NCBI RefSeq assembly: GCF_006717095.1
Contig: NZ_VFQE01000001.1
Span: 1,674,001-1,738,000, forward strand
Direction: 5' to 3'
Source: Blastococcus colisei
Lineage (GTDB): Bacteria > Actinomycetota > Actinomycetes > Mycobacteriales > Geodermatophilaceae
DNA: 64,000 nt
A model generated the notes under the pieces. The model was not told the origin of the DNA. It ran no database searches and saw nothing but the letters and a program-made list of their open reading frames with translations. Position numbers and translations under genes: made by a program. Positions within the stretch are counted from its first letter, which is position 1. Each line of letters begins with the position of its first letter. Shown here piece after piece: positions 2,198 through 57,366 of this stretch.

Positions 2198-2216
2198 TTA
2201 GGTGTGCCTTGCCTAC
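2198..2216. promoter_or_regulatory. IdeR/DtxR-like iron box upstream of the Fe3+ transporter
   Basis: The 19 bp TTAGGTGTGCCTTGCCTAC match the IdeR/DtxR consensus at 13 of 19 positions, including the TTAGGT and CCTA ends. The site is 30 bp before the start of the ferric-binding lipoprotein. An IdeR ortholog is encoded at 56641-57366. Iron repression is inferred, not shown. Confidence 0.65.
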
Positions 2217-2232
2217 AGCACGCGGTGGACCC

Positions 2233-2238
2233 AGGAGG
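2233..2238 (+). promoter_or_regulatory. Ribosome binding site that decides the SBP start
   Basis: AGGAGG lies 8 nt before the GTG at 2247 but 14 nt before the ATG at 2253. This favours GTG as the true start of the iron-binding protein. Confidence 0.6.
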
Positions 2239-2246
2239 AACAGCAC

Positions 2247-3272
2247 GTGACCATGTCCCGCCGGACGATCGGCAGTCTCCTGACCTCGGCCGGGGTGCTC
2301 GGCGCGCTGACGGCGTGCGGCAACTCCGCGGCGTCCGACGAGGGCGAGACGCTCACCGTCTACAGCGCCCAGCACGAGAGCCTGGTCCGCACGATGGTCG
2401 AGGGCTTCACCGAGGAGACCGGCATCGAGCTGGAGTTCCGGGATGCCAACGACTCCGAGCTGGCCAACCAGATCGTGCAGGAGGGCGAGGCCTCGCCGGC
2501 CGACGTCTTCCTCACCGAGAACAGCCCGGCGATCGACGTCGTCGACAGGGCGGGCCTGCTCGCGCCCGTCGACCCGTCGACGCTGGACCAGGTCGAGGCG
2601 CCCTACCGGCCGGAGTCGGGCAACTGGGTGGGCTTCGCCGCCCGGTCGACCGCGCTGATCCACAACCCGGCGGAGATCGCCGAGGAGGAGCTGCCGGCCT
2701 CGATGCTCGACCTCGCCGGGCCGGAGTGGGAGGGCCGGGTCGCCATCGCGCCCGGCGGCGCCGACTTCCAGGCGATCGTCAGCGCCGTCCTCGCGCTCGA
2801 GGGCGAGGACGCCACCCGCGAGTGGCTGGCCGGCCTGGAGCGCAACGGCGAGATCTACGCCAGCAACACCGCGATCATGAAGGCCGTCGACGAGGGCGAG
2901 GTCCCGGTCGGCATCACCTACCACTACTACTGGTTCCGCGACCAGGCCCAGGACGGCCTCATCGGCGACGACGCCGAGCTGCACTACTTCCGCAACCAGG
3001 ACCCGGGCGCGTTCGTCAGCGTCTCCGGTGCCGGCGTGCTCGCCTCCTCCGACCAGAAGGACGACGCGCAGCGCCTGGTCGAGTGGCTGACCAGCCCCGA
3101 GGGGCAGGAGCGGCTGGCCGACAGCAGCGCGCTGGAGTACGCCGTCGGCGTCGGCGTCCCCTCCGCCGAGGCGCTCCCGCCGCTGGCCGAGCTGCAGGCG
3201 CCCGCGGTCGACCCCGGCTCGCTCGACGCCCCGCTGGTCACCGAGCTGATGCAGGAGGTCGGGCTGCTCTGA
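2247..3272 (+). CDS. Fe3+ ABC transporter substrate-binding lipoprotein
   Basis: 341 residues. The N-terminus is a lipoprotein signal (basic MSRR, hydrophobic core, lipobox LTAC with Cys at about residue 24), so the protein is anchored outside the membrane. ETLTVYSAQHESLVRTMVEGF and the YHYYWFRDQ segment, with its paired tyrosines, match FbpA/FutA ferric-binding proteins, where such tyrosines coordinate Fe3+. It precedes permease and ATPase genes with overlapping junctions. The iron box at 2198 suggests repression in iron-replete cells. Iron is the likeliest substrate, though some relatives bind other ligands. Confidence 0.9.
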   Translation: MTMSRRTIGSLLTSAGVLGALTACGNSAASDEGETLTVYSAQHESLVRTMVEGFTEETGIELEFRDANDSELANQIVQEGEASPADVFLTENSPAIDVVDRAGLLAPVDPSTLDQVEAPYRPESGNWVGFAARSTALIHNPAEIAEEELPASMLDLAGPEWEGRVAIAPGGADFQAIVSAVLALEGEDATREWLAGLERNGEIYASNTAIMKAVDEGEVPVGITYHYYWFRDQAQDGLIGDDAELHYFRNQDPGAFVSVSGAGVLASSDQKDDAQRLVEWLTSPEGQERLADSSALEYAVGVGVPSAEALPPLAELQAPAVDPGSLDAPLVTELMQEVGLL

Positions 3273-4879
3273 CCACACCCACGCTGCCGGTCCCGGGGCC
3301 CGGGGCGCCGGTCGTCCCGGCGGCCCGGGGCTCCCGGCCGTCCGCGTTCCCGGCCCGCCGGCTGCGCCGGTCGCCGGTGACGCTGGCACTGGCCGTGGGC
3401 GTGGCCGCTCTCGCGCTGCTGCCGCTGGGCTACATCACCTGGTACACCGCCGACCTCGGCTGGGACGGGGTCCGCGAGCTCGTGCTGCGGCCGCGGGTCG
3501 CGGAGCTGCTCTGGAACACCACCAGGCTGGTCCTGGGCACGGTGGTCTGCTGCGCGGTGCTCGGGGTCGGGGCGGCCTGGCTCGTCGAGCGCTCGTCGGT
3601 GCCGGCCCGCCGGATCTGGCACGTGCTGCTGGTCGCCCCGCTGGCGGTGCCGGCGTTCGTGAACAGCTACGCGTGGATCTCGCTGCTGCCCGGCCTGGAC
3701 ACCTACGCCGGCGCGCTGCTGGTCGTGACGCTCTCCTACTTCCCGTTCGTGTACCTGCCGGTCGCCGCGGCGTTCCGTGGGCTGGACCCGGCGCTCGAGG
3801 ACACCGCCCGCGGGCTGGGCCTGTCCACCTGGGCGGTGTTCCGCCGGGTTCAGCTGCCCCAGCTGCGCGTGGCGCTGCTGGGCGGAAGCCTGCTGGTAGC
3901 CCTCCACCTGCTCGCCGAGTTCGGCGCGCTGCAGATGCTGCGCTACCCCACCTTCACCACCGCCATCTACGACCAGTACCGCGCCACGTTCAACGGGCCG
4001 GGCGCCACGATGCTGGCCGGGATCCTCGTCCTGCTCTGCCTGGGCCTGCTGCTGGCCGAGATCCGGCTGCGCGGACGGCGCGGCTACGCGCGCACCGCCC
4101 GCGGCGCCGCCCGCCCCGTCCGGCCGGTGGACCTCCGGGGCCTCACCGCGCCGGCCCTGCTCGCGCTGGGCGCGCTCGTCGGGCTCGCCCTCGTCGTGCC
4201 CCTGGTCAGCCTCGGCTACTGGATGACCAGCGGCCGCGCGGCGACGTTCGAATGGGCGGCGCTGACCACCACCACGGGGACGACGCTGGCGCTGGCCACC
4301 GCGGCGGCCGCCGTCACCACCGCGATGGCGCTGCCCACCGGCTGGCTCGCCGTCCGGGCTCGCGGCCGCATCTCGACCCTGCTCGAGCGGAGCACCTACC
4401 TCGGCAGCTCCGTCCCCGGCATCGTCGTCGCCCTGGCGCTGGTGACCCTCAGCATCCGGGCCACGCCGTGGCTCTACCAGACCGTCCCGGTGCTGCTGGC
4501 CGCCTACGCGATCCTGTTCCTGCCGCGGGCGATCGTCACCGTCCGATCCGCGGTCGAGCAGGCGCCGCCGCTGTACGACGACGTCGCGTCGTCCCTCGGG
4601 TCGTCGGCGCCCGACCGGCTGCGCCGGATCACGCTGCCGCTGCTGGCGCCGGGCATCGGCGCCGGCGCCGCGCTGGTCTTCCTCGCCGTCGTCACCGAAC
4701 TCACCGCGACCCTGCTGCTGGCCCCGACCGGAACGACCACCCTGGCGACGGCGTTCTGGTCGGCGAGCAGCGCCCTGGAGTACGGCGCGGCGGCGCCCTA
4801 CGCCGTGATCATGGTGCTGCTCTCCGCGCCCGCTACCGTGCTGCTGTCCCGAGATGCCCGACGAGGTCTGACCCCATGA
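3269..4879 (+). CDS. Fe3+ ABC transporter permease (FbpB type, two fused halves)
   Basis: A 536-residue integral membrane protein with two repeated permease halves. Each half carries an EAA-type cytoplasmic loop: LEDTARGLGLSTWAVFRRV in the first and YDDVASSLGSSAPDRLRRI in the second. About twelve membrane segments are expected. The start is unusual: the only start-like codon at the junction is CTG at 3269, overlapping the preceding TGA (CTGA), with AGGAGG 10 nt upstream. The next standard start is GTG at 3377, which would give 500 residues beginning at the first membrane helix. The ATGA overlap at 4876 couples it to the ATPase. Confidence 0.88.
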   Translation: MTTPTLPVPGPGAPVVPAARGSRPSAFPARRLRRSPVTLALAVGVAALALLPLGYITWYTADLGWDGVRELVLRPRVAELLWNTTRLVLGTVVCCAVLGVGAAWLVERSSVPARRIWHVLLVAPLAVPAFVNSYAWISLLPGLDTYAGALLVVTLSYFPFVYLPVAAAFRGLDPALEDTARGLGLSTWAVFRRVQLPQLRVALLGGSLLVALHLLAEFGALQMLRYPTFTTAIYDQYRATFNGPGATMLAGILVLLCLGLLLAEIRLRGRRGYARTARGAARPVRPVDLRGLTAPALLALGALVGLALVVPLVSLGYWMTSGRAATFEWAALTTTTGTTLALATAAAAVTTAMALPTGWLAVRARGRISTLLERSTYLGSSVPGIVVALALVTLSIRATPWLYQTVPVLLAAYAILFLPRAIVTVRSAVEQAPPLYDDVASSLGSSAPDRLRRITLPLLAPGIGAGAALVFLAVVTELTATLLLAPTGTTTLATAFWSASSALEYGAAAPYAVIMVLLSAPATVLLSRDARRGLTP

Positions 4880-5952
4880 GCTCCCTGACCGTCACAGCGC
4901 TGACCAAGGCCTTCGGCACCACTCCGGTCCTCACCGGAGTCGACCTGCACGTCCCCGGGGGGAGCTTCACCGCGCTGCTGGGCCCGTCCGGCTGCGGCAA
5001 GACGACGCTGCTGCGCCTGATCGCCGGCTTCGACGACCCCGACTCCGGCACCGTGGCCCTGGGCGACCGCGTCGTGGCGGGGGAGGGCCGCAGCGTGGCC
5101 GCCCGCCGGCGCGGCATCGGCTTCGTGCCCCAGGAGGGCGGGCTGTTCCCGCACCTGACCGTGGCCGGCAACATCAGCTTCGGGCTGCCCCGCCGGCAGC
5201 GGCGCGACGGCGGCCGGGTCCGGGAGCTGCTCCAGCTGGTGGGGCTGGACACCGTGCTCGCCGACCGCTCGCCGCACCAGCTCTCGGGCGGTCAGCAGCA
5301 GCGCGTCGCCCTCGCCCGGGCCCTGGCGCCCGCGCCCTCGCTGGTGCTGCTCGACGAGCCGTTCTCCTCCCTGGACGCGGGGCTGCGCGAGGAGACCCGG
5401 CTGGCGGTCTCCTCGGCGCTGGAAGCCACCGGCGCGACCGCCGTGCTGGTCACCCACGACCAGGCCGAGGCGTTGTCCATGGCCGACCAGGTGGCGGTGC
5501 TCCGCGACGGGCGGCTCGTGCAGCTCACCGATCCGCGCACGCTGTACCGCAGCCCGCGCGACCTCGACGTCGCCACCTTCGTCGGCGAGGCGGTCGTGCT
5601 CGACGCCGACGTGCACGGCGGGACGGCGCACTGCGCGCTGGGCGCCGTGCCCTGCCAGGGTGCCGTGGCCGACGGCCCGGCCCGCGTGCTCCTGCGCCCC
5701 GAGCAGCTCCGGCTCTCGACGCCCGGCCGGGCCGGTGCCGTGGTGGCCCGCGTCCGCAGCGTCGACTTCTACGGGCACGACTCGCGCGTCTGGCTGGCCC
5801 TTCCCGACGGCGGCACGGTGAGCGCGCGGCTCGACGGCGCGGACCTGCCGTCGGTCGGCGACGACGTCGCGGTGACCGTGCGCGGCACGGCGCTCGCCTT
5901 CCCCGTGAGCGGTCCGGCCGAGGTGACCGCGCCCCTGCAGCCCTCCGCCTGA
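4876..5952 (+). CDS. Fe3+ ABC transporter ATP-binding protein
   Basis: 358 residues. Walker A is GPSGCGKTT (36-44), the signature is LSGGQQQR (136-143), Walker B is LVLLDE (156-161), and the H-loop is VTHDQAEALSMAD. A C-terminal TOBE-like domain (about 240-358) fits the Fbp/Pot family. It energises the permease encoded just upstream and starts in an ATGA overlap with it. No terminator is evident before the aldolase operon 99 bp downstream, so read-through is possible, but that operon has its own promoter. Confidence 0.93.
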   Translation: MSSLTVTALTKAFGTTPVLTGVDLHVPGGSFTALLGPSGCGKTTLLRLIAGFDDPDSGTVALGDRVVAGEGRSVAARRRGIGFVPQEGGLFPHLTVAGNISFGLPRRQRRDGGRVRELLQLVGLDTVLADRSPHQLSGGQQQRVALARALAPAPSLVLLDEPFSSLDAGLREETRLAVSSALEATGATAVLVTHDQAEALSMADQVAVLRDGRLVQLTDPRTLYRSPRDLDVATFVGEAVVLDADVHGGTAHCALGAVPCQGAVADGPARVLLRPEQLRLSTPGRAGAVVARVRSVDFYGHDSRVWLALPDGGTVSARLDGADLPSVGDDVAVTVRGTALAFPVSGPAEVTAPLQPSA

Positions 5953-6027
5953 CCGCGCCTGCCCGACCGCCGGCCGGATCCGGACGCCGCCGATCCACCA
6001 CGCCGGGACCACTGCGCAGCGATCACG

Positions 6028-6046
6028 TTAGGGAAGCCTAAGCTTC
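6028..6046. promoter_or_regulatory. IdeR-like box over a leaderless promoter
   Basis: TTAGGGAAGCCTAAGC contains a perfect TTAGG-N4-CCTAA inverted repeat and matches the IdeR consensus at 12 of 19 positions. The -10 hexamer TAAGCT (6039-6044) lies within it, and the aldolase GTG follows after 7 nt, the spacing of leaderless actinobacterial genes. A bound repressor would cover the -10. Confidence 0.55.
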
Positions 6047-6051
6047 GCGCC

Positions 6052-6849
6052 GTGGACCTCTTCCTCTTCACGGTGGACCCTTCCTGGGGGCGCGACGTGG
6101 TCGCCGCCGGAGCGGCCGGGATCGTCGTCGACTGGGAGCGCCGGGGCAAGGCGCGTCGGCAGCAGGGCGAGAACACCCAGATCAACGACGACACCCCCGA
6201 GGACCTGACCCGCATGCGGGCGGCCACCGACGGGCGGCTGGTCTGCCGGATCAACGGGTACGGGCCCTGGACCCCGGCGGAGGTGGACGAGGCCGTCGCC
6301 CGCGGCGCCGACGAGATCCTGCTGCCCATGGTCCGCACGGTCGACGAGGTGGACCGCACCCTCGACCTGGCCGCCGGCCGGTGCGGCGTCGGCATCCTCG
6401 TGGAGACGCAGGACGCGGTCGACCGGTCGGCCGCCCTCGCCCGGCGTCCGCTGTCGCGGATCTACGTCGGCCTCAACGACCTGCGCATCGACCGGGGCTC
6501 CGACGAGCTGTTCCGGCCGCTGGTCGACGGCACGGTCGACGCCGTGCGTGCGACGGTCTCCCAGCCGTTCGGGGTGGGCGGCCTGACGCTGCCCGGCAGC
6601 GGATTCCCCGTGAGCGCCGGCCTGCTCGCGGCCGAGCTGGTCCGCCTGCGCACCGACTTCACCTTCCTCCGGCGGTCGTTCACCGCCGACATGGCCGGCC
6701 GCGACCCGTTCGTCGAGGTCCCGCGGCTGCTGGACTCCCTCGCCGCGCTCCGGCGCAACGATGCCGCCGAGGCGGCCGTGCACCGGTCCCTGTTCGTCGA
6801 CGCCGTGACCGGGCGGCCGGTCGCAGCGGCGGTGACGGCGCCGGCGTGA
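6052..6849 (+). CDS. HpcH/HpaI-type aldolase / citrate lyase-like protein
   Basis: 265 residues with the PEP/pyruvate-binding TIM-barrel pattern: CRINGYG with Arg66, VETQDAV with Glu118, and YVGLNDL with Asp143. Glu118 and Asp143 are likely the Mg2+ ligands. Family members cleave or form 2-keto acids, malyl-type or citryl-CoA compounds; the substrate here is unknown. It is first in an operon with an epimerase and a GT2 enzyme, joined by GTGA and ATGA overlaps, a very unusual partnership for this fold. The GTG at 6052 is probably leaderless and lies under an IdeR-like box. It may make or modify a carboxylated sugar precursor. Confidence 0.8.
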   Translation: MDLFLFTVDPSWGRDVVAAGAAGIVVDWERRGKARRQQGENTQINDDTPEDLTRMRAATDGRLVCRINGYGPWTPAEVDEAVARGADEILLPMVRTVDEVDRTLDLAAGRCGVGILVETQDAVDRSAALARRPLSRIYVGLNDLRIDRGSDELFRPLVDGTVDAVRATVSQPFGVGGLTLPGSGFPVSAGLLAAELVRLRTDFTFLRRSFTADMAGRDPFVEVPRLLDSLAALRRNDAAEAAVHRSLFVDAVTGRPVAAAVTAPA

Positions 6850-7709
6850 GGGCGCTCGTCACCGGCGCCGGCGGCTTCGTCGGCCGGCACCTCGTGGACC
6901 GGCTGACCGCCGACGGCTGGGACGTCGTCGGCCTCACCCGGGACCGGGTCGACCTGGCCGATCCCGTCGCCGGCGCGGCCGCGGTGCGCGCCGCCGACCC
7001 CGACGTGGCGTTCTCGCTGGCCGCCGGCCGGGCCAAGGCCACCGCGGCGGAACGGGCGGCGACGACGGCGGTGAACACCAGCCCGTGGCTGGTCGACGCG
7101 CTGCCCGACCGGTGCCGCGCCGTGGTCCGGCTGGGATCCTCCACCGAGTACGCCGCGTCGCCGCGTCCGCTCACGGAGGAGGCGGCGCTGGAGCCGCGCG
7201 GCTTCTTCGGCGCCACCAAGGCCGCCGGGTCCCTGCTGCTGCTGGGCGCCGCGGCCGAGCGGGGGGTCCGGGCGGCCGTGCTGCGTGCGTTCCAGGTCTA
7301 CGGCCCCGGTGACCATCCCACCCGGCTGGTCCCGGTCGTCCTCTCCGCCGCCCGCACCGGCGGGACCGTGCCGCTGCCGGCCCGGCTGAGCCGGCGCGAC
7401 TGGGTCTGGGTCGGCGACGTCGTCGACGCGTGCGTGCGGGCCGCCACCGACGACAGCCTGCCGGCAGGGACGGTCCTCAACATCGGCACCGGCGTGCAGA
7501 CCAGCACCGAGGAGCTGGTCGAGACGGCCGCGCGGGTGACCGGCCGGCCGATCGCCACCGCCGCCGGCGCGCACCCGGGCCGCGCCTGGGACAGCGCCGA
7601 CTGGGTCAGCGACCCGTCGGCTGCCCGCCGCCTGCTGGGCTGGACGCCGACGGTGGACCTCGCCGAGGGCCTGGCCCGCACCTGGGCGGTGGAGGGCGGA
7701 GCGGCATGA
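6846..7709 (+). CDS. NAD-dependent epimerase/dehydratase with altered active site
   Basis: 287 residues of extended SDR fold. The nucleotide-binding loop is TGAGGFVG (6-13) and the serine region is LGSSTEYAAS (about 97-106). The normal YxxxK catalytic motif reads FGATK (121-125), so the usual tyrosine is Phe121. Either chemistry is altered or the protein works as a binding or reductase-like partner. A sugar-nucleotide substrate is likely from the C-terminal VYGPGDHPTRLVP and the RDWVWVGDVVDA segment. It overlaps the aldolase (GTGA) and the GT2 gene (ATGA), so one mRNA makes all three. Confidence 0.85.
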   Translation: MRALVTGAGGFVGRHLVDRLTADGWDVVGLTRDRVDLADPVAGAAAVRAADPDVAFSLAAGRAKATAAERAATTAVNTSPWLVDALPDRCRAVVRLGSSTEYAASPRPLTEEAALEPRGFFGATKAAGSLLLLGAAAERGVRAAVLRAFQVYGPGDHPTRLVPVVLSAARTGGTVPLPARLSRRDWVWVGDVVDACVRAATDDSLPAGTVLNIGTGVQTSTEELVETAARVTGRPIATAAGAHPGRAWDSADWVSDPSAARRLLGWTPTVDLAEGLARTWAVEGGAA

Positions 7710-8407
7710 CCGGGGAACGGGGTCCCGAGCTGGGGGTCGCGGTCGTCGTCCCCGTGCACGGCAACGAGGCCACCCTCCGGCCACTGGCCGAGCGGCTCGC
7801 CGCCGCCCTGTCCGGCCGGGACTGGCGGCTGCGGTTCGTCATCGACGCCTCGCCCGACGACAGCGCCGCCGTCGCCGGGACGCTGGCCGCCGAGGAACCG
7901 CGGATCGCGGTCACCGGGCTCTCCGTCAACGTCGGCCAGCACGCCGCCCTCGCCCACGGCCTGGCCGCCGAGCCGGACGCCGACGCGTGGGTCTGCCTCG
8001 ACGCCGACCTGCAGGACCCGCCCGAGGCGGTGCCGCTGCTGCTCGACCGCCTGGCCCGAGGCGACGTCGCCGCCGTCTTCGCCGGACGGCGGGGCCGCTA
8101 CGAGTCGCCCGTGCGGCGGCTGACCGGCACCGTCCACCGGCTGGTCGTCGCCCGGCTGACCGGACTGCCGCCGGACGCAGGCGCCTTCTTCGCCATGGAC
8201 GCGCGGGTGCGGGACGCCGTCGTTCCCGCCGTCCGCGACGAGGGGGCGCCGAGCGTCGTCCTCGCCGTGGCCCGGGCCGGACGGCCGGTGACCAGCGTCC
8301 CGGTTCCGCGCGACCGGCGGACGGAGGGCCGGTCGTCGTGGAGCGGGCGCTCCCGCGTGCGGCAGTCGGTGCGGTCGCTGGTGTGGGCGGTCCGCTCCGG
8401 GCGCTGA
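7706..8407 (+). CDS. GT2 glycosyltransferase, polyprenyl-phosphate sugar synthase-like
   Basis: 233 residues with a GT-A fold. VVVPVHGNEATL opens the nucleotide-binding domain, and CLDADLQDPPE carries the metal-binding DxD (99-101). The DLQDPPE form is typical of dolichyl/undecaprenyl-phosphate hexosyltransferases such as GtrB and DPM1. Unlike GtrB it has no C-terminal membrane helices. It would transfer a sugar from a nucleotide donor to a lipid phosphate carrier. The neighbouring convergent GT39-like enzyme is the type that uses such lipid-linked sugars. It starts in an ATGA overlap with the epimerase. Confidence 0.85.
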   Translation: MTGERGPELGVAVVVPVHGNEATLRPLAERLAAALSGRDWRLRFVIDASPDDSAAVAGTLAAEEPRIAVTGLSVNVGQHAALAHGLAAEPDADAWVCLDADLQDPPEAVPLLLDRLARGDVAAVFAGRRGRYESPVRRLTGTVHRLVVARLTGLPPDAGAFFAMDARVRDAVVPAVRDEGAPSVVLAVARAGRPVTSVPVPRDRRTEGRSSWSGRSRVRQSVRSLVWAVRSGR

Positions 8408-8408
8408 G

Positions 8409-9857
8409 TCAGCGCTCCCAGAGCTGCAGGACCAGATCGGTCTTGCTCGCCGAGAAGTTGTGCACGTCGGTCATGCGCAGACCCGCCTCGCGCATGATCT
8501 CGTCGTCGTCGGTGGGCTCGGGGACGCCGTCGATCAGCCGGCGGACCAGCCAGACCCGGTCGGCGCCGGCGGGGGCGTCGTCCGGCGGCAGCACCACGTC
8601 GGGGCGGAGCTGCGGGGCGATCGTGCGCACGTAGTGGTCCAGCCCCATCGCCGAGCGCTGGTCGGCGGCGACGATCGGCTCGCCGGCCCGGTGGACCTCG
8701 GCGAGCGTCGCGACGAGCTCGTCGGAGCGTTCCCGTGGTCCGCGGTCGGCCATCGGCGCGCTGGTGAGCAGCGTGCAGGCCAGCAGCAGCCCCGCCATCG
8801 GCACCCGGGCAGGGCGCGGCAGGGCCAACGCGCCGGCCGCCGCCAGGACACCCACACCCAGCAGCCCGGCGAGCAGATAGCGGGGCAGGTAGACCGGGCG
8901 CACGAGCTCGACGAGGACGAGCAGCAGCAGCGGCACGACCGCCCACGCCGTCGCGACGACCCGGACGCCGCGCGCGCGGCCCGCGCCGACGACGGCGAGG
9001 CCGACGGTGAGAGCCAGGAGGGGGCCCCAGCCACCGGCCCAGGCCCGGACGGCCAGGGCCGGGAATTCGCCGCCGGTGCCGGTCAGGTGCTCGGCGTTGC
9101 GCCCGCCGGTCCCGTTGAGCAGGTTCAGCAGGACCATCCCGGCCGCGGGCAGGACGGCGAGGGCGCCGACCAGCAGCAGCGGCCACGCCCGCCGGCCGCG
9201 CAGCACCACCGCGGCGACCACGAAGGCGGCCAGGACGGTGACCGCGTACCAGTGCATGAGCCCCATGCCGGCACCGGCCAGACCGAACAGCACCAGGCCC
9301 CGCGGCGGCTCCTGCAGCCATCGGACGAGCCCCAGCAGCGCGCCACCGGTGGCCAGCATCGCGAGCCCGTAGCTGCGCGCCTCCACGGACTGCTCGAGCA
9401 CCAGCGGGCTGGCCGCCAGGACCAGCCCGGCGAGGACGCCGGTCGCCCGGCCCGCCGGCCGGCTGATGGCCCGCGTGATCAGCGCCATCCCGCCGGCCGT
9501 CGCGAGCAGGGAGAGCACCCGCAGCGACGTGTCGCTCCCGATCCCGGGCAGCGACATCCAGGCGTGCGCGACCACGTAGTACGGCGCGTTGTACGACGGC
9601 GGGACGGTCGCCAGGTAGTCGGTGGTGCCGCGTCCGGAGACGACCGCCGAGAGGATGTCGCCCAGCGGCAACCGGCCCACCTCGGCGGTGAACAGCTCGT
9701 CGAACCACAGGCCGTGCCCGGGGCGGAGCAGCACCATCCCGAGGACCAGCACCAGGACCGGCGGCAGCAGCTCGACCGGCGACCAGCGGGACGCGACCGG
9801 GCGGGCCTCCTCGGGGGCAGGGCTGCGGGCGTCGTCCCGGATCGCCGTGGTGGTCAC
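8409..9857 (-). CDS. GT39/ArnT-like membrane glycosyltransferase
   Basis: 482 residues with about ten membrane segments and a soluble C-terminal tail. The first periplasmic loop contains LWFDELFTAEVG, with the Asp53-Glu54 pair characteristic of PMT/ArnT-type GT-C enzymes. VEARSYGLAML is a further loop common in this group. It should move a sugar from a polyprenyl phosphate to a surface acceptor. The GTG at 9857 is 7 nt from the -10 TAACCT, inside an IdeR-like box, so it looks leaderless and iron-controlled. It is convergent with the GT2 gene, 1 bp apart. Confidence 0.85.
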   Translation of the reverse strand: MTTTAIRDDARSPAPEEARPVASRWSPVELLPPVLVLVLGMVLLRPGHGLWFDELFTAEVGRLPLGDILSAVVSGRGTTDYLATVPPSYNAPYYVVAHAWMSLPGIGSDTSLRVLSLLATAGGMALITRAISRPAGRATGVLAGLVLAASPLVLEQSVEARSYGLAMLATGGALLGLVRWLQEPPRGLVLFGLAGAGMGLMHWYAVTVLAAFVVAAVVLRGRRAWPLLLVGALAVLPAAGMVLLNLLNGTGGRNAEHLTGTGGEFPALAVRAWAGGWGPLLALTVGLAVVGAGRARGVRVVATAWAVVPLLLLVLVELVRPVYLPRYLLAGLLGVGVLAAAGALALPRPARVPMAGLLLACTLLTSAPMADRGPRERSDELVATLAEVHRAGEPIVAADQRSAMGLDHYVRTIAPQLRPDVVLPPDDAPAGADRVWLVRRLIDGVPEPTDDDEIMREAGLRMTDVHNFSASKTDLVLQLWER

Positions 9858-9862
9858 CTGCG

Positions 9863-9881
9863 AAAGGTTAGGCGACCCTTG
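9863..9881. promoter_or_regulatory. IdeR-like box over the GT39-like gene promoter
   Basis: AAAGGTTAGGCGACCCTTG matches the IdeR consensus at 13 of 19 positions, including a continuous 9-base core. On the minus strand its TAACCT (9870-9865) is a -10 hexamer placed 7 nt before the GTG at 9857. Confidence 0.55.
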
Positions 9882-39579: not shown

Positions 39580-41895
39580 TCAGCGGCGGGTGGGCTGCGT
39601 CGCGCGCTCGGCGGGCCGGCCGGCGGGAAGGGCCGTCGTCGCGTCGCGGTTCTCCGCCAGCGGGGCGAAGCCGCGCAGCCGCAGGCTGTTGGTCACCACG
39701 AACACCGAGCTGAACGCCATCGCCGCCCCGGCGATCATCGGGTTGAGCAGCCCGGCCGCGGCCAGGGGGATCGCCGCGACGTTGTAGGCGAAGGCCCAGA
39801 ACAGGTTGCCCTTGATCGTCGACAGCGTGCGCCGGGACAGCCGGATCGCGTCGGCGGCCACCCGGAGGTCGCCGCGCACGAGGGTCAGGTCGCTCGCCTG
39901 GATCGCGACGTCCGTGCCGGTGCCCATCGCCAGCCCGAGGTCGGCCTGCGCCAGAGCGGGGGCGTCGTTGACGCCGTCGCCCACCATGGCCACCGTGCGG
40001 CCCTCGCCCTGCAGCCGGCGCACCACGTCGACCTTGTCCTGCGGCAGCACCTCGGCGATCACGGTGTCGATGCCCACCTCGGCCGCCACCGTGCGAGCCA
40101 CCGACTCGTTGTCACCGGTGAGCAGGATCGGGGTGAGCCCGAGGTCGCGCAGCTGTCGGACGGCGGCGGCCGAACCCGGCTTCACCGCGTCCGCGACGAC
40201 CAGGACCCCGCGCGCGGCGCCGTCCCAGCCGACGGCGACCGCGGTCCGGCCGGCGGCCTCGGCGGCGGCCGCCGCCCGCTCGAGGGCGGGGGAGAGCGCC
40301 AACGACCAGTCGGCGAGCAGGCGCCGGCGGCCGACCACGACGGCAGAACCGTCGACGACGCCGGTCACCCCGAGGCCTTCGGCGTTGGCGAAGCCCTCGA
40401 CCGGCGGCAGCGCACCCACGCGCTCGGCCGCGCCGCGGGCCACCGCCTGCGCGATGGGGTGCTCCGAGGCCGACTCCAGGGCGCCCGCGAGCCGCAGCAG
40501 TCGCTCGGCGTCCTCCCCGTCGGCGGCGACGACGTCGACCAGCGACATCCGGCCGGTGGTGACGGTGCCGGTCTTGTCGAGGACGACCGTGTCCACCCGG
40601 CGGGTGTCCTCCAGCACCTCCGGCCCCTTGATCAGGATCCCGAGCTGGGCGCCGCGCCCGGTGCCGACCATGAGCGCGGTCGGCGTGGCCAGGCCCAGGG
40701 CGCAGGGGCAGGCGATGATCAGGACGGCGACCGCGGCGGTGAACGCGGCCGGCAGTCCCGCGCCGGCGCCGATCCAGAAGCCCAGGGTCGCGACGGTGAG
40801 CGCGAGGACGACCGGCACGAAGATCCCGGAGATCCGGTCGGCCAGCCGCTGCACCTCCGCCTTGCCGTTCTGGGCGTCCTCGACCAGCCGCGCCATCTGC
40901 GCCAGCTGGGTCTCCGAGCCGATGCGGGTGGCGCGCACCACCAGCCGGCCACCGGCGTTCACGGTCGCGCCGGCCACCGTGTCGCCCGGCCCGACCTCGA
41001 CGGGCACCGACTCCCCGGTGAGCATCGAGGCGTCCACGGCCGAGGACCCCTCGGTGACCTCGCCGTCCGCCGCGATCTTCTCGCCCGGCCGGACGACGAA
41101 CTCCTCGCCCACGGCCAGCTCGTCCACCGGGACGCGCCGTTCGGCGCCGTCCCGCAGGACCGAGACCTCCTTGGCGCCCAGCTCCAGCAGTGCGCGCAGG
41201 GCCGCGCCGGCCTGGCGCTTGGACCGGGCCTCGAAGAAGCGGCCGGCGAGGATGAACGTGGTCACCCCGGCGGCGGCCTCGAGGTAGATGTTCGCGCTGC
41301 CGTCGCTCCGCGCGATCGTGAACTCGAACGGGTGCGTCATGCCCGGAACCCCGGCGGTGCCGAGGAACAGCGCGTACAGCGACCAGCCGAACGCCGCCAG
41401 GGTGCCCAGCGACACGAGCGTGTCCATGGTTGCGGCGCCGTGCCGGAGGTTGGTCCAGGCGGCCCGGTGGAACGGAGCGCCGCCCCACACCACGACCGGC
41501 GCGGCGAGGGTGAGCGACAGCCACTGCCAGTACTCGAACTGCAGCGCGGGGACCATCGCCATCGCGACGACCGGGACGGTCAGCGCCGTCGACACCAGCA
41601 GCCGCTGCCGGAGCGGGCGCACGGCGTCGGCAGGTTCCTCGGCCGGCTGCTCCGCCCGCGGCGGCCGGGGGAGCTCGGCCGTGTACCCGGTCTTCTCGAC
41701 GGTGGCGATCAGGTCCTCGGGCGTCACGCCCTCGCCGAAGGTGACCTTCGCCTTCTCCGTCGCGTAGTTCACCGTCGCGGTCACGCCGTCGAGCTTGTTG
41801 AGCTTCTTCTCGATCCGGTTCGCGCAGGACGCGCACGTCATGCCGCCGATCAGCAGCTCCATGTCGGTCGTGGAGTTGTCGGTGGGGGTGCTCAT
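39580..41895 (-). CDS. copA: Cu+-transporting P1B-type ATPase
   Basis: 771 residues. An N-terminal heavy-metal domain has GMTCASC; the transmembrane Cys-Pro-Cys motif is in [15 protein letters not shown] carries the phosphorylated Asp; SEHPIAQ is the P1B His-Pro; GDGVNDAP binds Mg2+. It exports Cu+ from the cytoplasm. It is the last gene of the csoR-copZ-secreted protein-copA operon and overlaps the preceding gene (ATGA). CsoR, upstream, likely controls it. Confidence 0.95.
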
Positions 41896-56640: not shown

Positions 56641-57366
56641 TCAGAGCAGCGGCGCGGCTTCCAGCGGGGAGAGCCTGTCGTCCACGGCGCTGACGAAGAG
56701 GTGCTGCGCGACGCCGACGGGGAGGACCTGGTCGTCCAGGGCGACCGATCCCTCCACCAGGCGCGCGGTCATGGTGACGCCCGGGCGGACTCCCACCTCG
56801 GCCAGCTGGCGCAGCAGGTCGGTGTTCTCCTGCAACTGCTCGCTGATCCGGCGGACCACCACCGGCCGGCCCTCCGCCGTGGCCGTCGTGCTCAGCAGCG
56901 TGAGCGAGTCGAGGACCGCTGCGGTCTCGCCGCCGAGCGGCTCCTCGCCGCGGAGCGCGTCGAGGCCGGGGATCGGGTTGCCGAAGGGCGAGACCGACGG
57001 GTTGCCGAGCAGGGTCAGCAGCTTGCGCTCCACCGCCTCGCTCATGACGTGCTCCCAGCGGCAGGCCTCCTCGTGGACGTCGGCGTAGTCCAGCCCGATG
57101 ACGTCCACGAGCAGGCACTCGGCCAGCCGGTGCTTGCGCATGACCGCCGTCGCGAGCTGGCGCCCCTCGTCGGAGAGCTGCAGGTGCCGGTCGCCCTCGA
57201 CGCTCAGCAGGCCGTCGCGCTCCATCCGGGCCACCGTCTGGCTCACCGTCGGGCCGCTCTGGTGGAGCCGCTCCGCGATGCGCGCGCGCAGCGGGACGAT
57301 TCCCTCTTCCTCCAGCTCGAAGATCGTCCGGAGGTACATCTCGGTCGTGTCGATGAGGTCGTTCAC
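56641..57366 (-). CDS. ideR: Iron-dependent repressor IdeR (DtxR family)
   Basis: 241 residues, with strong identity to mycobacterial Ide[19 protein letters not shown] and [19 protein letters not shown] form the DNA-binding domain. Every metal ligand is present: Met10, His79, Glu83, His98, Cys102, Glu105 and His106. The C-terminal SH3-like domain follows. Fe2+-bound IdeR represses iron uptake genes; the candidate boxes at 2198, 6028 and 9863 are likely targets. It is divergent from acuC, and sigB lies 4 kb away. Confidence 0.96.

Follow-up and report, generated by a model that had tools for sequence, protein, structure and literature searches.

Predicted IdeR boxes at a linked FbpA-type Fe3+ importer and putative lipid-linked sugar module in Blastococcus colisei

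Most of what is known of iron control by IdeR and DtxR concerns siderophores, transporters, haem use and storage. Polyprenyl-phosphate-sugar synthases of glycosyltransferase family 2 (GT2) are paired with membrane transferases of the GT-C type in the ArnC–ArnT pathway for lipid A aminoarabinose and in the mycobacterial PpgS–Rv3779 galactosamine pathway. SbnG, an iron-regulated citrate synthase of HpcH fold from Staphylococcus aureus, acts in staphyloferrin B synthesis. Here we analyze a 64,000-nt stretch (the window; all coordinates are window positions) of the 5.16-Mb genome of Blastococcus colisei (Geodermatophilaceae, a family living in soil and on stone), in which predicted IdeR/DtxR boxes stand before the genes of an FbpA-type Fe3+ importer and of a putative lipid-linked sugar module.

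With the DtxR and IdeR regulons of Corynebacterium and Mycobacterium, the locus shares an orthologous regulator and the 19-bp consensus, with boxes sitting at or close to the −10 elements of iron-uptake genes. Its importer resembles FbpABC, SfuABC and HitABC in binding protein, permease, ATPase and a pair of adjacent tyrosines (YY), and differs from them by the linked glycan module, a lipobox on the binding protein and the IdeR-type boxes. Like ArnC–ArnT and PpgS–Rv3779, it pairs a GT2 polyprenyl-phosphate-sugar synthase with a GT-C transferase, whereas the sugar-making genes here encode an HpcH-fold protein and a short-chain dehydrogenase/reductase (SDR) without the catalytic tyrosine, and the boxes are of iron type. 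As with SbnG, an HpcH/HpaI fold occurs within an iron-acquisition unit, but its partners are glycosyltransferases instead of siderophore synthetases. The main texts of three DtxR regulon papers (PMC1382209, PMC12327846 and PMC13001254) mention no glycosyl, aldolase or epimerase function, and that of a fourth (PMC5784534) mentions no glycosyl or aldolase function; PMC524172 reports one box predicted before the putative glycosyl transferase DIP0168 of C. diphtheriae. No paper describing such an iron-controlled module was found by title or abstract, in a search that scarcely covered subscription journals.

The locus and its regulator

The features of the locus are listed below (+ and − denote strands).

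2198–2216, no strand: predicted IdeR/DtxR box 1, TTAGGTGTGCCTTGCCTAC, between the divergent GNAT and Fe3+-binding protein genes
2247–3272, +: Fe3+-binding lipoprotein of FbpA/SfuA/YfuA type (phmmer), with lipobox LTAC and a YY pair
3296–4879 (start approximate), +: permease of the Fe3+ ATP-binding cassette (ABC) transporter, two permease stretches in one protein (Pfam BPD_transp_1)
4876–5952, +: Fe3+ ABC ATPase (Pfam ABC_tran and TOBE_2)
6028–6046, +: predicted IdeR/DtxR box 2, TTAGGGAAGCCTAAGCTTC, overlapping the −10-like TAAGCT of the leaderless-looking gene at 6052
6052–6849, +: divergent HpcH/HpaI-type barrel protein, called the aldolase below (structure model, PDB and profile matches)
6846–7709, +: extended-SDR protein resembling nucleoside diphosphate (NDP)-sugar epimerases/dehydratases, with FxxxK for YxxxK (Pfam Epimerase)
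7706–8407, +: short GT2 (233 aa) of the ArnC/dolichyl-phosphate-mannose (DPM) synthase type, with DADLQDPPE (PDB matches)
8409–9857, −: GT-C membrane glycosyltransferase, GT39/ArnT-like (AlphaFold model, WFDE motif)
9863–9881, −: predicted IdeR/DtxR box 3, weaker, CAAGGGTCGCCTAACCTTT, overlapping the −10-like TAACCT of the GT-C gene
56641–57366, −: IdeR (PF02742, NCBIfam equivalog)
1693–2130, −: GNAT acetyltransferase, ElaA-like (Pfam/NCBIfam), a possible accessory gene

An earlier sequence-only reading of this DNA had described three IdeR-like boxes, two of them on −10 elements of leaderless genes, within this gene order and on these strands. All three boxes were found where it had placed them, the arrangement is as it described, and boxes 2 and 3 overlap TAAGCT and TAACCT, respectively. 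Its assignment of box 1 to the Fe3+ transporter also stands, with the addition that the same box fronts the divergent GNAT gene (2130–1693).

The regulator that this reading named, an IdeR ortholog with all metal ligands, is borne out. The protein encoded at 57366–56641 on the minus strand is the single match in the genome to PF02742 (Fe_dep_repr_C, the DtxR metal-binding domain), and it scores 324.2 bits against the NCBIfam actinobacterial DtxR equivalog NF053665 (cut-off 290). A second DtxR-family regulator was rejected on the basis of this single match, a search that covers the DtxR family only. Residues M10, S37, P39, Q43, H79, E83, H98, C102, E105 and H106 are all present; we take M10, H79, E83, H98, C102, E105 and H106 to be the metal-ligand positions, and E176 and Q179 in the SH3 region are presumably the SH3-domain ligand positions. 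DNA-contact residues of IdeR/DtxR are named in PMC10317159.

The product of 2247–3272 is a clear relative of SfuA, YfuA and FbpA, matching 8k7n, 1xvy and 1xvx at E ≤ 2.8e-108 (phmmer). It carries the lipobox and the YY pair and aligns with SfuA and YfuA through the HYY region. Its homology to solved Fe3+-binding proteins, together with the tyrosine pair, marks it as a predicted FbpA-type binding protein.

Strength and conservation of the boxes

The 19-bp consensus was TTAGGTTAGSCTAACCTAA, and an independent scoring matrix was derived from C. glutamicum DtxR sites, the first 31 in Table 1 of PMC1382209. The background sample comprised the window and 20 stretches of this genome, each of 20 kb, with 463,622 positions in all (about 0.46 Mb of the 5.16 Mb). 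Boxes 1, 2 and 3 match the consensus at 14/19, 14/19 and 13/19 positions, and at least 13/19 is reached by 12 positions in the 464 kb sampled. By matrix score they rank 3rd, 6th and 8th–9th, respectively; these ranks are conservative, if anything, because two of the 20 sampled stretches hold already-known strong hits. Box 3 is clearly weaker than boxes 1 and 2: it barely exceeds the best unrelated positions, one of which outscores it in one of two scorings. A box of the TTAGGTTAGSCTAACCTAA type thereby stands clearly above background at boxes 1 and 2 and marginally so at box 3.

Several controls address the origin of these scores. The same DNA contains 51 leaderless-like starts with a median score of −8.9; those of the genes at 6052 and 9857 stand at 14.4 and 9.7, followed by one at 2.3. 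The idea that the boxes are mere leaderless −10 elements was rejected since only these two window genes exceed 2.3. Composition artefacts were rejected as well, given that shuffling the regions before the binding-protein, aldolase and GT-C genes never produced a score as high as 8; shuffles doing so occur only for the family ATPase set (fraction 0.0068). No score of at least 8 was found upstream of the internal genes (permease, ATPase, epimerase and GT2) across 48–49 family loci, or upstream of the neighboring DUF6328 gene (0/26), and one of ten MarR-gene upstreams scores above 8. The GNAT upstream, intended as a further control, reaches 8 in 27 of 43 family loci, because at some loci GNAT is transcribed divergently from the binding-protein gene, with box 1 common to both. 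The two genes are divergent and less than 600 bases apart in 30 of the 58 loci with a binding protein; GNAT lies further off in 13 and was not found in 15. The GNAT gene (1693–2130, −) may belong to the iron unit in part of the family.

Scanning GTDB genomes yielded 67 loci, 48 from Geodermatophilaceae and 19 from elsewhere, and the family box counts include the window. Box 1 scores at least 8 in 48/48 family and 7/9 outgroup loci, and box 2 in 47/49 family loci (49/49 at ≥ 5) and 11/19 outgroup loci, while box 3 reaches 5 in 31/46 and 8 in 13/46 family loci. Motif-free alignment recovered the first two sites independently of the matrix: the best 19 columns coincide with box 1 in 48 binding-protein upstreams (1.51 bits per column versus 0.84 elsewhere) and with box 2 in 49 aldolase upstreams (1.58 versus 0.58). 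Among the 46 GT-C upstreams, the best window holds 1.37 bits per column versus 0.57 elsewhere. In three Geodermatophilus-type genomes (L103, L108 and L109) the aldolase box is TTAGGTGTGCCTAAGCTCA, the first twelve bases of which are identical to box 1 of most genomes. On this evidence boxes 1 and 2 are well supported, and box 3 is a partial, lineage-limited feature, degraded in part of the family. The IdeR control proposed earlier is well supported in this way for the importer and the aldolase–epimerase–GT2 operon, by matrix score, conservation, controls and the single DtxR-family match.

Of the four other top-scoring sites in the sampled DNA, one adjoins a ferritin gene, one lies between a siderophore-binding protein gene and a siderophore-interacting protein (SIP) gene, one precedes a siderophore-type binding-protein gene in an Fe ABC locus, and one, on the small contig C3, lies just upstream of a second gene for ribosomal protein S4 (L133 11005–11607, −). 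This last site, TAAGGTGAGCCTAACCAAA, is the best IdeR-like box in the sample; an iron-type box is odd at this position because ribosomal protein S4 paralogs are usually tied to zinc. A fourth IdeR-like position in the window, at 41737–41755, has a matrix score of 8.9 and precedes a possible minus-strand start (41727) by 28 bases; it may be due to chance. The half-box TTAGGNNNGCCT alone shows no enrichment in the genome (7 matches versus 10 for the reversed control). About 28 kb past the window, at C1:1766335–1766359 (L137, L138), a pair of TTAGGNNNGCCT half-boxes on opposite strands point toward each other.

Distribution and enzymes of the sugar module

Among 96 family genomes, 45 carry the aldolase, 45 the binding protein (≥ 70% identity) and 45 the GT-C protein (≥ 68%). 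Compared by eye, these are the same 45 genomes, three of which have the GT-C gene on another contig. A block of random neighbors was rejected on the identity of the three sets. The seven-gene order is kept in all 20 relatives first compared, some of which have extra DNA between the GT2 and GT-C genes. The Geodermatophilus genes in this interval were rejected as module parts since their contents differ between two genomes (a DUF222–HNH protein and a tRNA-synthetase-like protein in L103, an ABC ATPase in L109). Linkage between importer and module takes three forms. Eight Actinomycetospora loci have the importer oriented away from the aldolase operon, and an Acidimicrobiales metagenome-assembled genome (MAG) has the importer genes and then the GT-C gene on the same strand, facing the aldolase operon. 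The comparison across Geodermatophilaceae suggested by the sequence-only reading finds a block that is not scattered and that keeps its link to Fe genes, a result that goes against the refutation which that reading had named.

Importer and module also occur apart. Six of the 51 family genomes that lack the module have a binding protein of 63–65% identity, and in all four of these loci that were examined the importer genes stand alone, each with a strong box. No importer is present in the stretch covered at seven Frankiales, Mycobacteriales or Actinomycetota MAG loci (two on contigs < 5 kb); all seven have an aldolase box of 14–16/19, starting 23–29 bases before the aldolase start. Within the order but beyond the family, eight genomes with the module were examined, some of them those same MAGs. 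All eight encode an FbpA-like protein elsewhere (33–40% identity), and six of these genes have a box score of at least 10 within 200 bases before the match.

In Hoeflea, Actinoplanes and a Phycisphaerae MAG, the stretch covered holds no importer, and no box of at least 12/19 precedes the aldolase. In Hoeflea marina (L233 6120–12637), the aldolase–SDR–GT2 trio lies between two methyltransferase genes, before a 502-aa protein without a Pfam match. No binding-protein match or box was found near this trio, which is probably a glycan locus outside iron control. In a phylum-wide sample, the aldolase was detected at E ≤ 1e-10 in 3 of 396 genomes, this one included; one of the three holds the trio in order at 30–41% identity on a 3.9-kb contig (L252). 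By these counts the module is rare, and the trio at its core is also found outside an iron setting.

The structure model of the aldolase-like protein, with a predicted local distance difference test (pLDDT) score of 91.5, shows a barrel like those of HpcH/HpaI enzymes and pyruvate kinases, as judged by PDB structure matches. Its profile matches HpaI, with E118 and D143 falling on E149 and D175, which we take to be the HpaI metal ligands; both residues are invariant in 25/25 aligned sequences. Where the catalytic histidine of HpaI, presumably His45, would fall when placed by eye, directly after the invariant DxE, alignment A5 shows R, N, C, H or T. The window protein shares the fold but falls below the PF03328 gathering cut-off (19.8 versus 25 bits), as do two other relatives (19.8 and 21.3); one MAG ortholog scores 30.7. 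The earlier description as an HpcH/HpaI-type aldolase thus holds for the barrel and metal ligands and fails for the Pfam label.

The SDR matches Pfam Epimerase at 128 bits, carries the Rossmann glycine motif GAGGFVG and has MoeE5 as its best PDB match. The catalytic tyrosine position is phenylalanine in 21 of 22 aligned rows (read by eye), so the YxxxK motif is absent. The Hoeflea relative has YxxxR, keeping the tyrosine with arginine for lysine.

In the PDB, the GT2 matches catalytic domains of ArnC-type enzymes (9bhc, 8vxh) and of DPM synthase. The DLQDPPE motif noted previously was recovered within DADLQDPPE, invariant in 17/17 aligned sequences and containing both DXD and QDPPE. The GT-C model (pLDDT 79.9) matches OST, ALG12 and ArnT with a Foldseek probability of 1.00 and a TM-score of ~0.5, and also resembles the AftA/AftD arabinosyltransferases and Pmt4. 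Its acidic first-loop motif WFDE is invariant in 20 rows. With 21.0 bits against Pfam PMT_2 (gathering cut-off 26.1), the protein described earlier as GT39-like retains the GT-C fold and is a candidate member of GT39. Together, the GT2 and GT-C proteins follow the usual logic of a polyprenyl-phosphate-sugar synthase and an extracytoplasmic transferase.

A proposed iron-controlled surface modification

Predicted boxes, their conservation and the IdeR ortholog make regulation of the importer and glycan genes by IdeR a well-supported proposal, and a functional coupling of the sugar module to iron acquisition is moderately supported. That iron-import genes and putative surface-sugar genes appear to share an iron switch suggests that the cell surface changes at low iron. 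We consider it reasonably probable that two gene sets are repressed by IdeR, those of the FbpA-type importer and those of a polyprenyl-phosphate-sugar module whose product decorates the envelope of iron-starved cells. The boxes, regulator, conservation, co-occurrence, linkage and enzyme folds are read from the DNA itself; from these we infer repression in vivo, a benefit of the modified surface for iron acquisition, and a sugar, pathway direction and acceptor of the following kind. When iron is plentiful, Fe2+-bound IdeR would occupy box 1 at the importer and box 2 at the aldolase–epimerase–GT2 operon and block transcription, and in part of the family box 3 at the GT-C gene would likewise be covered; at boxes 2 and 3 the block would arise from the covered −10 element. 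When iron is scarce, the Fe3+ lipoprotein importer and the lipid-linked sugar module would be made together. The HpcH-fold enzyme and the SDR may make or modify an activated sugar, the GT2 would load it onto polyprenyl phosphate, and the GT-C enzyme would move it outside the membrane to an envelope acceptor, such as a wall polysaccharide, glycolipid or lipoprotein. A surface glycan and an iron scavenger are both plausible products.

Several observations weigh against this proposal. The module is absent from 51 of the 96 family genomes (no aldolase and no close GT-C match). Hoeflea, Actinoplanes and the short contig L252 hold the trio with neither iron genes nor boxes nearby. At the Acidimicrobiales locus the genes are linked, but no box scoring at least 10 lies within 200 bases before the binding-protein gene. 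Aldolase upstreams fall below 8 in 8 of 19 outgroup loci and in 2 of 49 family loci, though all 49 of the latter reach 5. Box 3 at a score of at least 8 is found in 0 of 14 outgroup loci, and the best-conserved window of the GT-C upstreams consists of the −10 side of the box and the start codon, not the whole of box 3. With the family counts above, IdeR control of the GT39-like gene, as put forward by the sequence-only reading, is supported only in part. Because the SDR lacks the catalytic tyrosine and the aldolase family is divergent, the sugar-making step remains a proposal.

Other explanations accommodate some of the same evidence. IdeR could control the module while its sugar serves general envelope remodeling or an iron-sparing swap, the importer linkage then reflecting shared regulation only. 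Such an account is in line with the altered envelope of iron-limited M. tuberculosis, as described in a review (PMC9132128), with the related-lineage MAG loci that keep the box without a visible importer, and with the Hoeflea trio without iron genes. Shared regulation needs no adjacency, yet linkage to one importer type spans three arrangements and the three family gene sets are identical, which leaves this explanation rather unlikely. Glycosylation of the Fe3+-binding lipoprotein, or of some other iron protein at the surface, with the module acting like actinobacterial protein mannosyltransferases, would suit the lipobox of the binding protein, the Acidimicrobiales GT-C gene that comes after the importer genes on the same strand, and the resemblance of the GT-C model to OST, ALG12 and Pmt4 as well as ArnT. 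We judge it quite improbable, given that in 4/4 examined family loci with a 61–66% identical binding protein the importer occurs without the module, and that a sugar-making pair dedicated to one protein would be unusual.

The occurrence of SbnG (4tv5), which has the same fold, among the PDB matches of the aldolase raises the question of a secreted small iron chelator, built or modified by the module with a citrate-like acid coming from the HpcH-fold enzyme. Other HpcH/HpaI barrels and those of pyruvate kinases rank above SbnG, however, and SbnG was rejected as the closest relative since these are nearer in both sequence and structure; the block contains no synthetase gene, and GT2 and GT-C enzymes of these kinds use lipid-linked sugars in the membrane. 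A chelator pathway is accordingly very improbable. It is hardly credible that the boxes arise from −10 elements and by coincidence within a merely conserved neighborhood. Two boxes do overlap TANNNT elements, and the −10 side is the best-kept part of box 3, but for boxes 1 and 2 this account is contradicted by the ranks in the matrix scan, by the controls with leaderless starts, shuffled sequence and internal genes, and by conservation across the phylogeny.

We return to joint repression of the importer and an envelope-decorating sugar module by IdeR as the favored reading. A further step, which we regard as doubtful, is that the envelope of iron-starved cells carries an iron-binding surface sugar, unusual and perhaps acidic, produced by the HpcH-fold enzyme and the SDR and delivered on polyprenyl phosphate, that gathers Fe3+ and passes it to the FbpA-type lipoprotein. 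If true, such a sugar would represent a wall-bound alternative to secreted siderophores. A conserved glycan-transfer module under IdeR, linked to one type of Fe3+ importer, would by itself widen the iron response of environmental actinobacteria to include a defined surface modification. With its few genes, all open to experiment, the block bears on two questions: what an HpcH-fold enzyme makes together with an SDR lacking the catalytic tyrosine, and how Fe3+ is gathered at the surface of Gram-positive cells that use FbpA-type importers.

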